A DNA stretch of 22,611 nucleotides from a virus. The first letter of the stretch is position 1, and each line of letters opens with the position of its first letter. The stretch is from positions 1 to 22,611 of IMG/VR virus record IMGVR_UViG_3300032288_001035; one strand, written 5' to 3'. The translations under genes and the position numbers were made by a program. Under the pieces are notes generated by a model, which saw only the letters and a program-made list of their open reading frames with translations, did no database searches and was not told the DNA's origin. Positions 149 through 3,582 of this stretch are shown one piece after another.

Positions 149-582
149 TTTGCACCTCCTGTGGTCAATTCACTTTGCAGGTATTCCTCAATCAGCATTT
201 CTCGGCGTTGGTTGTTGTGAGCTCTGCACTCAATCTGACAGTTGCCGACCGTCATCGCGCCGCCTTTTGAGCGTGGCACTAAATGCCCGCACTCAGCATC
301 GGAGCAACAAGGGCCTTTGCCGCGGTTACTGAAAAAGCACTCGACACCATGAGCAATTGCGACTTCGACTTTGACCTTTGTGTTGGTGTTCTTTCGAACG
401 TTCAACCGCATCTGATCAATGTCGTCCGGTGTAAAAGGAAACACTGTGTCATCGAAGTGCATGACCCATTCCTGATAGATCAGGCAGGCCGCTTGTTTAC
501 GTTCTTGACTTGTCACGAGATCACGCCCGCCAAGTTGGGCTTTGTGAATCGCGATGGCCAGTTTGAGCTCGTTGAATGTCAT
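145..582 (-). CDS. HNH endonuclease
   Basis: A 145-residue HNH nuclease. The C-terminal half carries the ββα-metal core: Cys pairs around CCSDAEC, the catalytic-type His in GHLVPRSKGG, the Asn in VGNCQ, then ECRAHN and a trailing NQRR helix. In HK97-type phages an HNH protein encoded next to the terminase acts with it in cutting packaging sites, and this gene would sit just upstream of TerS if the window is circular. Its ATG (582-580) overlaps the methyltransferase stop as ATGA, so it is translationally coupled. Pairing with a DNA methyltransferase also allows a restriction-modification-like reading, but the packaging role is the simpler one. Confidence 0.85.
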   Translation of the reverse strand: MTFNELKLAIAIHKAQLGGRDLVTSQERKQAACLIYQEWVMHFDDTVFPFTPDDIDQMRLNVRKNTNTKVKVEVAIAHGVECFFSNRGKGPCCSDAECGHLVPRSKGGAMTVGNCQIECRAHNNQRREMLIEEYLQSELTTGGAN

Positions 583-1970
583 GAAATCACCAGCCGTTTC
601 TGAGCCAAATCGACAAACGTTTCGCTCTTGTCGATGCCGATGTATTTCCGACCGTTCCGGATTGCCGCAACTCCTGTTGTCCCGCTGCCGTTGAACGGAT
701 CCACAACCAAATCGCCGGGCTCACTGGCACAAAGCACAATTGGTTCAACCAATGCCAAGGGAAGTTGTGTCGGGAACGTCGGAATCCGTTCTTCGCATGT
801 GCCTGTCAGTCGCGGAATCTGCCAAACGTCGTCCCAAATCTTTCCGCCAGCCGCGGCTCGTTTATCGTTGTACTTTGTCTGACGATCAGACGGACGTGAA
901 ACCGGCTCGGCATTCCAAACCATTGCCCGCTTGTGCATGGTCGCATAGAAGATGTGGCGGCTTGTCCGGTTGAACTTCCCGGAACAGTTCACGCCGAACG
1001 TCTCGTACCACTTGATCCAGTTCCGGATATTGAAACCGAGATCCTTCAGAATGAGGCACGACTCCGCGGCCACTTCGTCGCAGGTCATCAGCCACAGGCT
1101 GCCGTCGTCTGTCAGACACTCACGGCACAAGGACAACCAGTCTTTGCACCAGCCGACGAACTTGTCATGCGGCATTGAATCGGCTTCAGCTCCGTCGCCG
1201 TAATCGATTCCGATGTTGTACGGTGGATCCGTGAAGATCAGCCGGGCAGGTCCGTGATTGTCGCGGACTGATTCCAGCCCAGTGATCACATCGTCATTGA
1301 TCAAAGTCCACAACGGTTGATCGTCGCTGAGCTCCTGAACTGCTGCCGCTTTCTGCTCGAGCTCAACAGCCTTTTCCGTTCGCTTTATTTCCGCCATTGC
1401 TTGCGGAATTGTCAGCTTGCCCTGTTCAATCTTCTCGGCGAGATCCGTGCGCGTTGCGACGATTTTTTCGGCTGGCTTGATGTACCCGCGATTTGTTCCG
1501 GCCGATGCGGCTCGCTTTGAATCTGTCAGGGCATCATTGTCTTTTTTACTGGTGCAATTAGTTGCACCAGTTTTTGGCCTTCCACCTTTCGGCTGCTCCG
1601 CGACAGTAGCGGCAATCGCCTTTTGGTATTCCTCATCCAATTGAGCTCGTTTCGCGTCAGCAATTGCAGCCTGACTCGAGCTTAGATGTCTTCGTGTCCG
1701 ATTCTTTGACCACACGAACGACAACGCCTCTGATGCGGATCCGGTAAACTCAACAGTCTTCGGCTTCACTTGAGCGATCGCACAAGCGGCACTGCGGTTT
1801 CGACCGTCCAAAACTTTGCCGTCAAACATGACGACAGGTTCGCGGAGTCCATGCTTTGCGATGTCATCGGCCAGCGCTTGGAGCTCGTCATCTGGCATCA
1901 TCGGGAAAATGCAGGCTGCTGGATGCCATGCGAGATTCACCGGCGCGTCGCTATTTAGGCGCGTTCCCAT
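579..1970 (-). CDS. DNA methyltransferase with N-terminal ParB/Srx-like domain
   Basis: A 463-residue two-domain protein. Residues about 10-105 form a ParB/sulfiredoxin-like fold, with the KVLDGRNRSAAC motif at 52-63. Residues about 110-215 are a charged, probably helical linker. Residues 220-463 are a SAM-dependent amino-methyltransferase of the β type: catalytic DPPYN at 248-252 comes before the SAM-binding motif DPFNGSGTTG near 424-433. This class makes N6-methyladenine or N4-methylcytosine. ParB-methyltransferase fusions are common in phages and protect phage DNA or modify regulation. GGAGG at 1985-1981 lies 10 bases before the ATG. It is the first gene after the promoter and folded leader at 1986-2155, and is coupled to the HNH gene by an ATGA overlap. 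Confidence 0.92.
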   Translation of the reverse strand: MGTRLNSDAPVNLAWHPAACIFPMMPDDELQALADDIAKHGLREPVVMFDGKVLDGRNRSAACAIAQVKPKTVEFTGSASEALSFVWSKNRTRRHLSSSQAAIADAKRAQLDEEYQKAIAATVAEQPKGGRPKTGATNCTSKKDNDALTDSKRAASAGTNRGYIKPAEKIVATRTDLAEKIEQGKLTIPQAMAEIKRTEKAVELEQKAAAVQELSDDQPLWTLINDDVITGLESVRDNHGPARLIFTDPPYNIGIDYGDGAEADSMPHDKFVGWCKDWLSLCRECLTDDGSLWLMTCDEVAAESCLILKDLGFNIRNWIKWYETFGVNCSGKFNRTSRHIFYATMHKRAMVWNAEPVSRPSDRQTKYNDKRAAAGGKIWDDVWQIPRLTGTCEERIPTFPTQLPLALVEPIVLCASEPGDLVVDPFNGSGTTGVAAIRNGRKYIGIDKSETFVDLAQKRLVIS

Positions 1971-1985
1971 TCAATGCACACCTCC

Positions 1986-2070
1986 GTGCGGCACCGCTTA
2001 ACGCAGGTCCGCACTCCGTTGCATCACGCTCCACGATGTGGAGTTGTCGCCCGTTGCTCGGGCTGCGTGA
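1986..2070 (-). promoter_or_regulatory. Structured 5' leader of the methyltransferase operon (possible three-way junction plus RBS-proximal hairpin)
   Basis: Read on the minus strand, 2070-2066 pairs with 2028-2024 (TCACG/CGTGA). This encloses two perfect hairpins: 2063-2059 with 2053-2049 (GCCCG/CGGGC, 5-base loop) and 2043-2038 with 2034-2029 (CTCCAC/GTGGAG, 3-base loop). A second domain follows: 2014-2009 pairs with 1991-1986 (GTGCGG/CCGCAC), extended by ACC/GGT, and ends exactly where GGAGG begins at 1985. The stems are seen directly. The three-way-junction model and any regulatory role are inference. I do not recognise a known SAM or SAH riboswitch consensus. Confidence 0.5.
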
Positions 2071-2076
2071 CAAGTC

Positions 2077-2125
2077 TCAAAACAAAAACCCCGTTGACCG
2101 AGTTATCAGGCTCAATCAACGGGGT
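2077..2125 (-). terminator. Intrinsic terminator or attenuator after the HTH gene
   Basis: A perfect 10-bp inverted repeat (ACCCCGTTGA at 2125-2116, TCAACGGGGT at 2097-2088, minus strand) is separated by 18 bases that can pair further (TGAG/CTCG). It is followed by TTTTTGTTTTG. The T-run exists only in the leftward direction. The hairpin lies 33 bases past the HTH stop. It also begins at the predicted start point of the promoter at 2128-2155, so it could attenuate that transcript as well. Confidence 0.7.
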
Positions 2126-2127
2126 GC

Positions 2128-2155
2128 ATATTACCGCTAGAAGTAGGATAGTCAA
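2128..2155 (-). promoter_or_regulatory. Predicted sigma70-type promoter for the methyltransferase/late operon
   Basis: On the minus strand TTGACT (2155-2150) and TAATAT (2133-2128) are separated by 16 bases. The -35 box matches consensus at five of six positions, and the -10 box keeps the first two and last two bases. The expected start is near 2121, inside the first arm of the terminator-like hairpin. The -35 box begins three bases after the HTH stop codon. This is the best promoter I see for the leftward operon. Confidence 0.5.
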
Positions 2156-2157
2156 TA

Positions 2158-2346
2158 CTACCCGGCCACTTTCTTTCTTCGATCTGGAAGATTCTGGATT
2201 TTTTCGATTTCCTTCTGGCTTAGGAACCGATCCCGCCCCATGAAGATTCCAATTGAATACTCACGGCAGATCTGGCGCACGCGACCATCGGTAACGCCGA
2301 GTTTTTCGGCTGCCTGCGAAACGGAAAAGAGTTGTTGAGTTGCCAT
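2158..2346 (-). CDS. Small helix-turn-helix DNA-binding protein (excisionase/MerR-like)
   Basis: A 62-residue protein starting MATQQLFSVSQAAEKLG. The winged helix-turn-helix pattern FSVSQAAEKLGVTDGRVRQI is followed by a short wing (FMGRDRFLSQKEIEKI) and a basic tail, the usual form of excisionase/MerR-N-terminal proteins. ATG 2346-2344 was chosen because GGAG lies 8 bases upstream; longer in-frame starts lack this. ATG 2352 is also possible. It sits between the attachment site and the leftward operon promoter, so it may act as excisionase, as regulator of the operon, or both. The function is inferred from fold and position only. Confidence 0.75.
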   Translation of the reverse strand: MATQQLFSVSQAAEKLGVTDGRVRQICREYSIGIFMGRDRFLSQKEIEKIQNLPDRRKKVAG

Positions 2347-2359
2347 AATCATGCTCCGT

Positions 2360-2388
2360 AAAATACCTCGTGCGGTAGTGAATGTCCA
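2360..2388 (-). promoter_or_regulatory. Possible promoter of the HTH gene
   Basis: TGGACA (2388-2383) and TATTTT (2365-2360) on the minus strand are 17 bases apart, close to sigma70 consensus. A start 7 bases after the -10 box would leave almost no leader and would fall inside the proposed Shine-Dalgarno. The element is therefore uncertain. Confidence 0.3.
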
Positions 2389-2485
2389 TGAAAAAAGAGC
2401 CTGAAGATTCTGATAACCACCGAGACTTATCATTGAGGTGGCGACCGCCCTCGCGGGTCAATCAATCTTCAAACTCTTTTTTCAT
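2388..2485. repeat. Long inverted repeat abutting the tRNA-Leu fragment
   Basis: Arms 2388-2409 and 2464-2485 match at 19 of 22 positions: 12 perfect bases (ATGAAAAAAGAG), a 3-base mismatch, then 7 perfect bases (GAAGATT). The 54-base spacer holds two smaller inverted repeats, TGATAA/TTATCA (2411-2416, 2427-2432) and CCACC/GGTGG (2417-2421, 2437-2441). The right arm ends exactly beside the discriminator base of the tRNA fragment. T-runs leave the stem in both directions, so it may be a terminator for the restored tRNA gene, or recombination-protein sites, or both. Confidence 0.65.
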
Positions 2486-2537
2486 TGCGCAAGACAGGAG
2501 TTGAACCTGCACGAGTTTTACCTCACTAGCTCCTGAA
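2486..2537 (-). other. Attachment site: 3' half of a tRNA-Leu(CAG)
   Basis: Minus-strand reading: anticodon loop TTCAGGA (2537-2531, anticodon CAG at 2535-2533), 3' anticodon stem GCTAG, a class II variable arm with GAG/CTC pairing (2525-2511), a T arm GCAGG-TTCAACT-CCTGT (2510-2494), acceptor strand CTTGCGC (2493-2487), discriminator A at 2486. No CCA is encoded. Upstream of the loop, neither the expected CTAGC anticodon-stem strand nor a GCGCAAG acceptor strand is present, so this is not a full tRNA. A break at the anticodon loop next to a tyrosine recombinase gene is the standard signature of tRNA-targeted integration. With phage genes on both sides, attP is favoured over a prophage end. 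Confidence 0.82.
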
Positions 2538-2688: not shown

Positions 2689-3582
2689 ATGGAGTCACAT
2701 CACTGGGAACGTACTATGCACATCGTTGATCATGCAGCCGAATACTGCCGACGTAAGTCAATCGCGAAAACTCCGCTCAGCAACGTACGACGCTTTGTAA
2801 AGGTGGTCGGAAACCTCGAGGCCGACACTATCACTCAGGCTCATGTCGAACAGTTCGTGATTGCAGCCAGAGCGGAGAAAATCCCGGAGTCCTCAATCCG
2901 TGGCATCGTGAAGGATGTCCGCACGATCGTCCTTGATGCAGGAGGCCCGGAGCTTCGCAACACTGTCAAGAAGCCCAAACCAGATCCACGCCCATGCGAA
3001 ATTTTCGACCTCGATACAATGTGGCCGTGGCTTGCTCCGTGGTCGTGCCAAATGGTTGTGCTAGCGTATTGGACCTGTGCTAGGCTGGAAGACTGCATCA
3101 AGCTTCAGCTTGCCGCCGACGCTGGCTGCCGGTCGATCAATTGGGAAGCTCAGAAGACCGGCCACCGCCATCGCATCCCAGTCCCGCCGTGGCTTTGCAA
3201 ATGGCTCGAACCTGTAAGACTTCCTTACAAGTTGAGCAACGATCACGCGCAGGTCATCGTCAGGGGAGAACTGGACCGCGTTTGCAAGGTCGCAAAGATT
3301 CCGCGAATCCTGCCAAGCCAGATCCGGGACCGGGGAATAACAGAATGGAGCAAAGTGTCAAGCGATGCCGGGGCTTTGCTGCATGGCCACGGACTTGGAA
3401 CGCGGGACCATTATGTTCCTGCTCTGGAGATTCTAACCGCCGCAATGGACCGCGTGCGAGTTCCTGCAGCGTTTGGGGCTGCATCATCGCCGGAAGAATC
3501 GTTTCTGCATTCGTTCAGGCGGCTTGATCCTGCTGCACAGAATCTACTGGGAGGCATGGCGGAACGGCTGGCGGCTGGCTAG
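2689..3582 (+). CDS. int: Tyrosine recombinase (phage integrase)
   Basis: A 297-residue site-specific recombinase. An N-terminal helical core-binding domain (about 10-95) precedes the catalytic domain (about 105-250). Catalytic residues visible: Arg132 (CARLED), Lys156 (QKTGHRHRIPV), Arg213 (SQIRDR), His234 (HGHG) and the nucleophile Tyr242 (DHYVP). The His of the usual HxxR box is Ser210 here. The gene points away from the tRNA-Leu fragment 150 bases upstream, which is its likely target. ATG 2689 has no clear ribosome site. ATG 2716 has a weak GGGAA upstream and may be the real start. An inverted repeat CCAGTG/CACTGG (2682-2687, 2701-2706) straddles the first ATG and could be an operator. 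About 45 residues follow the last motif. Confidence 0.85.
   Translation: MESHHWERTMHIVDHAAEYCRRKSIAKTPLSNVRRFVKVVGNLEADTITQAHVEQFVIAARAEKIPESSIRGIVKDVRTIVLDAGGPELRNTVKKPKPDPRPCEIFDLDTMWPWLAPWSCQMVVLAYWTCARLEDCIKLQLAADAGCRSINWEAQKTGHRHRIPVPPWLCKWLEPVRLPYKLSNDHAQVIVRGELDRVCKVAKIPRILPSQIRDRGITEWSKVSSDAGALLHGHGLGTRDHYVPALEILTAAMDRVRVPAAFGAASSPEESFLHSFRRLDPAAQNLLGGMAERLAAG

Follow-up and report, generated by a model that had tools for sequence, protein, structure and literature searches.

A leucine tRNA half as the probable attachment site of a temperate Planctomycetaceae phage, with a candidate antisense immunity RNA beside it

The viral DNA analysed here, a stretch of 22,611 nucleotides that we call the window, carries the 3′ half of a tRNA-Leu(CAG) gene. 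Judging from its sequence and from the host genes that resemble it, this half is almost certainly part of the attP of a temperate Planctomycetaceae phage that integrates in tRNA-Leu(CAG). The comparison indicates that the phage inserts into the leucine tRNA gene and brings the absent half with which the gene is mended. Next to the half lies a predicted folded RNA that was previously unlisted, and the best explanation of the whole is probably a model that combines this attP with an antisense immunity RNA. The source record, a viral contig of 22.6 kb, encodes portal, terminase, head protease, capsid and tape-measure proteins, and near-DNA and protein searches found no near relative of it among annotated phages.

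The original prediction placed a tRNA-Leu(CAG) 3′ half, cut at the anticodon loop, at 2486..2537, and this was borne out by the minus-strand reading, where the half begins exactly at the loop, and by thirteen host genes. From 2537 to 2487 the minus strand reads TTCAGGA-GCTAG-TGAGGTAAAACTCGT-GCAGG-TTCAACT-CCTGT-CTTGCGC, i.e. the anticodon loop, the 3′ anticodon stem, the class II variable arm (TGAGGTAAAACTCGT), the T arm and the acceptor strand, after which comes the discriminator, an A at 2486. A search for complete tRNAs with ARAGORN gave none in the window; the 5′ half is thus absent, as had been claimed. The exact 51-nt half also occurs in three further phages. An identical 51-nt half is found in phage L011 (6171-6221), despite the fact that its integrase is only 41% identical to that of the window, which suggests a shared, unsampled host.

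The host genes were found by searching GTDB genomes with a degenerate pattern for the tRNA half. This returned 13 contigs, titled Planctomycetaceae, Planctomycetales, Fuerstiella or Planctomycetota, and each hosts a complete tRNA-Leu(CAG) in the frame GCGCAAG ... CTAGC-TTCAGGA-GCTAG ... CTTGCGC. The start GCGCAAG and the 5′ anticodon stem CTAGC, both foreseen from the window's half, are therefore present in all thirteen. Because complete genes in the same frame occur in thirteen Planctomycetaceae contigs, the half in the window is not a chance resemblance. Two of the phages match their hosts exactly: L062 is identical to host L014 over 53-54 nt counted from the loop, and L007 (with its near-copy L008) to hosts L019 and L022 over 51 nt. 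The expectation that a host search would recover the gene thus held for the same-frame tRNA-Leu(CAG) and failed for the window's own version, since the exact 51-nt half is found in none of 170 family genomes with up to 3 mismatches allowed. A promoter-like TTGCC box lies 71-84 nt before the loop in 10 of the 13 host tRNA genes.

Close integrated relatives of this phage group are likewise not found in the 170 family genomes, which contain only distant integrases, none with the RNA element described below. One of these distant relatives adjoins a tRNA-Leu(CAA) in genome G023 (L048, G023:C67, 4261-5799 and 5946-6030) and lies at a prophage edge. Its integrase seemingly has three tandem copies of the N-terminal domain; that of L049 apparently has two.

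The integrase of the window (2716..3582, plus strand) is a tyrosine integrase of 288 amino acids without an N-terminal arm-binding domain, matching PHROG 1 integrase with an E-value of 2e-5. Its predicted structure (AlphaFold, pLDDT 87.5) has the two-domain fold of a tyrosine recombinase with a catalytic domain, and the Foldseek matches are the Brujita integrase 5vfz (the best), 1z1b and 2a3v, with lambda Int among them. In the alignment R123, K147, R204, H223 and Y233 are invariant (residues numbered from the Met at 2716). The HxxR motif reads SxxR: the first H is S201, this position holds other residues in distant relatives, and the remaining catalytic residues are kept. The comparison covers a set of 17 distinct phages whose integrases are related. 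The window is one of them, and L008 and L054 are regarded as near-copies.

These relatives help to locate the crossover. In the window, identity with the host begins at the first base of the loop; the preceding base is T in the phage (2538) and C in the host. The anticodon loop TTCAGGA (2531..2537, minus strand) is the inferred 7-bp crossover, or overlap, region, taken from the smallest host/attP overlap in L006, L053 and L055. These three phages share with the host gene only the 7-nt loop rightward and at most 1 base leftward. The original prediction had recombination at or after the anticodon loop; this minimal overlap points to the loop itself and makes a crossover inside it very probable. 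When the window is joined in silico to a host 5′ half, ARAGORN reports a tRNA-Leu(CAG), and the reciprocal junction gives no tRNA. The same holds for the attL and attR of all eight Leu half-type phages. A motif, CTAGCG(C/T)G, is kept in phage attP arms about 30-45 bp left of the core; the window's copy, at 2568-2575, is the reverse complement of the host sequence right before the loop (CGCGCTAG). It is possibly a second integrase site.

Is the half an attP, or could it be the attR at one end of a prophage, so that the half and the genes at 145-2346 would be host DNA? The 5′ half would be absent from an attR too, and the original prediction had kept open that these genes are foreign to the phage. 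That reading is highly improbable. The 29-kb contig of phage L004 carries the matching genes, on the same side, and the same tRNA half in its interior, with further sequence to left and right: the HNH endonuclease-like phage gene (145..582, minus strand) is 86% identical there, and the ParB-like/N6-N4 DNA methyltransferase (579..1970, minus strand) 94%. In all 13 host genes the DNA behind the tRNA differs from that of the phage, and the RNA element is not convincingly present in the 170 host genomes. What follows the tRNA half is phage-specific, and as the adjoining genes are phage genes, the site is an attP and not a prophage end. A decaying phage-borne tRNA gene without a role in integration has next to no probability. 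tRNAs are frequent in phages, and whole tRNA-Leu(CAG) genes do occupy this position in relatives, but in all eight Leu half-type phages the half starts exactly at the anticodon loop and adjoins the integrase, and in two of them it is identical to host genes. A decaying gene would not end at one common base every time.

The 17 phages differ in how much of the tRNA they carry. Eight have the Leu half and two (L059 and L060) have a tRNA-Val(GAC) half that, as read from the sequence, is cut at the same loop. In these two distant integrase relatives the Val half lies upstream of the integrase and is followed by the same RNA element; it appears that the target isotype has been switched and the cut position kept. 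In the other seven (L003, L005, L006, L053, L055, L056 and L058) a short core is followed by a whole tRNA-Leu(CAG). These seven phages have only 7-14 nt in common with the host attB, and the tRNA is not rebuilt. A tree of 16 integrase sequences shows the half and whole states exchanged at least five times over well-supported branches. The replacement tRNA begins just 40-112 nt behind the loop, hence the host tRNA promoter could drive it following integration. In L053-L055 the replacement tRNAs keep the loop TTCAGGA with an anticodon stem of CATGC/GCATG as opposed to CTAGC/GCTAG, and in L003 both stem and loop are changed. Such alterations could shield replacement tRNAs from the phage's own integrase.

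The whole-tRNA state resembles tRNA-dependent lysogeny, which has so far been described mainly in actinobacteriophages (Guerrero-Bustamante and Hatfull 2024, PMC10865867). In sequence, this is defined by an attL that does not rebuild the tRNA and by the carriage of a whole cognate tRNA (PMC10865867), and both features are found in the seven whole-tRNA relatives. The window falls outside the definition, as its attP rebuilds the tRNA.

In 16 of the 17 phages the tRNA, half or whole, is directly followed by an RNA element that is 72-99 nt long, usually ends in a T-run and also has the look of a terminator. In the window it occupies 2388..2485 (minus strand), where a long P1 stem, a small P2 and a P3 hairpin with a conserved loop are predicted (fold z = -6.5, with further evidence from covariation and a covariance model). 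The exception, L011, has a tRNA half and a plain terminator in place of the element, so the RNA is not required for integration. Eight phages share a three-way-junction form, with compensatory changes in 17 of 19 pairs (a level reached in 0 of 500 shuffles), and eight further phages have a second form of stacked helices. The apical loop around AAGUC is kept in both. Covariance models built from these forms find one element per phage, on the element's strand. Rfam, at gathering and relaxed thresholds, has no match for the element or for the leader discussed below, and its C4 antisense RNA model is not matched either. Among the 170 family genomes the form 1 model gives only four weak matches (E-values of 0.007-0.02 over the 170 genomes, a chance level) and the form 2 model none; form 1 also has no match in 397 class genomes. 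The idea of a host-wide terminator family was rejected, as the few weak host matches look random. A search for the loop motif in other viral contigs gave L062 as a genuine further member; the match in L063 was set aside as chance, the genes of that contig resembling those of an RNA phage.

The apical loop of the element is predicted to pair with the leader of the early genes. In the window the loop segment GAUAAGUCUC (2431-2422, minus strand) is complementary to a target, GAGACUUGUC (2078-2069, minus strand), whose first 7 nt are predicted to stay unpaired when the leader folds. Directly before the target (2079..2125, minus strand) come a hairpin and a U-rich tract, as in a terminator or an attenuator, and a leader with a predicted three-way junction lies directly behind it (2023..2071, minus strand). 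In 16 phages the loop and target form runs of 7-13 bp, with the target 310-407 nt downstream on the same strand; the weakest pairing, 7 bp, is that of L003, L009 and L053. Loop and target vary in a compensatory manner, e.g. AAAGUC/GACUUU in L004, L006, L007, L058 and L059, AGGUC/GACCU in L053, GAGUC/GACUC in L060 and UUGCAAGUC/GACUUGCAA in L055. When partners were permuted among 15 distinct pairs, the observed contiguous pairing was reached 0 times in 100,000, a count that is not a true probability, because the register was picked by eye post hoc and the phages are related rather than independent. In most loci the complement of the loop is found at the target site only. With shuffled downstream DNA as the control for each single phage, roughly half of the loops do not stand out, so the case for pairing rests on position and covariation. 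The loop is complementary to a lytic leader, with conserved compensation, which is the pattern looked for in an antisense immunity RNA. On these grounds we are confident that the element is an RNA with genuine RNA-RNA pairing.

Two other readings of the complementary segments were weighed. The first is that of a plain attP, in which the hairpin behind the tRNA is merely a terminator and the match between loop and leader has no regulatory meaning. The very stable stem and U-run end of the element fit this reading, as does the simple terminator of L011 at the same place, and a phage that targets a tRNA gene needs a terminator behind it. A terminator, on the other hand, needs neither a conserved apical loop nor inner helices, and has no use for an exact complement that co-varies with it and keeps a fixed position in 16 phages, which leaves this reading unlikely. 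In the second, also a poor candidate, both segments are DNA sites of one protein (the integrase, an excisionase or a repressor), set in opposite orientation and co-varying with the protein. The segments do flank a small HTH gene, and the co-evolution of sites with their protein would likewise produce matched changes. That said, most loci have only two copies, always mutually inverted; one always lies in a hairpin loop whose stems co-vary as those of an RNA do, and the other is predicted to be unpaired. Furthermore, L004, L005 and L009 have integrases that are 73-84% identical and their segments already differ in version, and the integrase has no arm-binding domain.

Around the target, the genes and sites run from the integrase through attP, the RNA element, the HTH gene and the early promoter to the target itself and the operon. 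A small HTH regulator gene, excisionase- or repressor-like, lies at 2158..2352 (minus strand), preceded by a promoter-like site, TGGACA-17-TATTTT (2360..2388, minus strand); several relatives have Cro/CI-type HTH genes in its place. The putative early promoter (2128..2155, minus strand) is sigma70-like, TTGACT-16-TAATAT. Palindromes of varied sequence overlap the early promoter, upstream of the target, in L003-L009, L045 and L053-L062, and these are likely to be operators of the small HTH protein. The first operon gene behind the leader, the methyltransferase in the window, varies among the phages and the target is constant. Together the gene order, the constant target, the Cro/CI-type HTH genes and the promoter palindromes point to an immunity region with two components, a repressor protein and an antisense RNA that would target the early leader.

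How might such a region work? Once the phage has integrated, the 5′ half left in the host and the 3′ half brought by the phage would together make up the tRNA again, and the phage half and the RNA element would come under the host tRNA promoter. The lysogen would then make the tRNA and a small trailer RNA, which may pair with the early leader and silence early genes in trans, on top of the repression exerted by the HTH protein. As the host promoter would transcribe first the tRNA and then the element, half-type phages would express the RNA only when integrated, unless the half has a phage promoter upstream of it. The parts of this model differ in strength. We give the silencing of early genes by the element an even chance, and coupling of its expression to integration somewhat less than that. 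Integration-coupled RNA immunity as a whole, in which a promoterless antisense RNA behind a half or replacement tRNA is made only once the phage is integrated and silences early genes, both those of the prophage and those of relatives that superinfect, is more tentative again. Counting against the model, the hairpin right before the target would by itself end most early transcripts, even with no RNA present. A literature search found no earlier case in which a host tRNA promoter drives an RNA once integration has occurred, although this absence is no proof.

Sites of the window's kind are well known. An anticodon-centred site was found for 2083 of the 3919 islands in Islander (PMC4383910), and as such sites are common, the window's attP is ordinary in kind. 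It shares with Islander class A (PMC4383910) a 3′ tRNA fragment in attP, a crossover in the anticodon loop, an attL that rebuilds the tRNA and an adjoining tyrosine integrase. It differs in that its hosts are uncultured Planctomycetaceae and that a structured RNA lies behind its tRNA half.

The nearest parallels for the RNA are the P4 CI and P1/P7 c4 RNAs, the former acting on its own operon (PMC4825925) and the latter on ant (PMC12197685). Like these, the element is a short structured phage RNA that belongs to an immunity region and has one stretch complementary to a lytic operon's leader; unlike them it has no Rfam match and is the trailer of an attP tRNA, and its effect is putative. By this analogy, we infer that it is an antisense immunity RNA comparable to P4 CI or P1 c4 RNA and that, once the phage has integrated, its transcription probably starts from the host tRNA promoter. 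A further parallel is mycobacteriophage BPs, whose attP is inside the repressor gene and in which it is a protein that integration changes (PMC4557955). Both systems have an arm-less integrase (Brujita, 5vfz, being the window's best structural match), and in both integration would alter the expression of an immunity factor. In the window, however, attP is a tRNA half, with the integrase gene on one side and the HTH gene on the other, and it is an RNA that would gain a host promoter.

Phages very commonly insert at tRNA genes, a preference usually put down to the symmetry and conservation of these genes. Should the RNA reading be true, such sites would offer a further advantage, in that the tRNA promoter would switch on an immunity RNA at integration. 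The RNA element, its co-varying partner and the repeated exchanges between half and whole tRNAs are all worth following. These exchanges, inside one integrase group, bear on how tRNA-dependent lysogeny relates to ordinary lysogeny, a question left open by PMC10865867. In sequence, the whole-tRNA relatives extend tRNA-dependent lysogeny to the Planctomycetes, where temperate phages are little studied.
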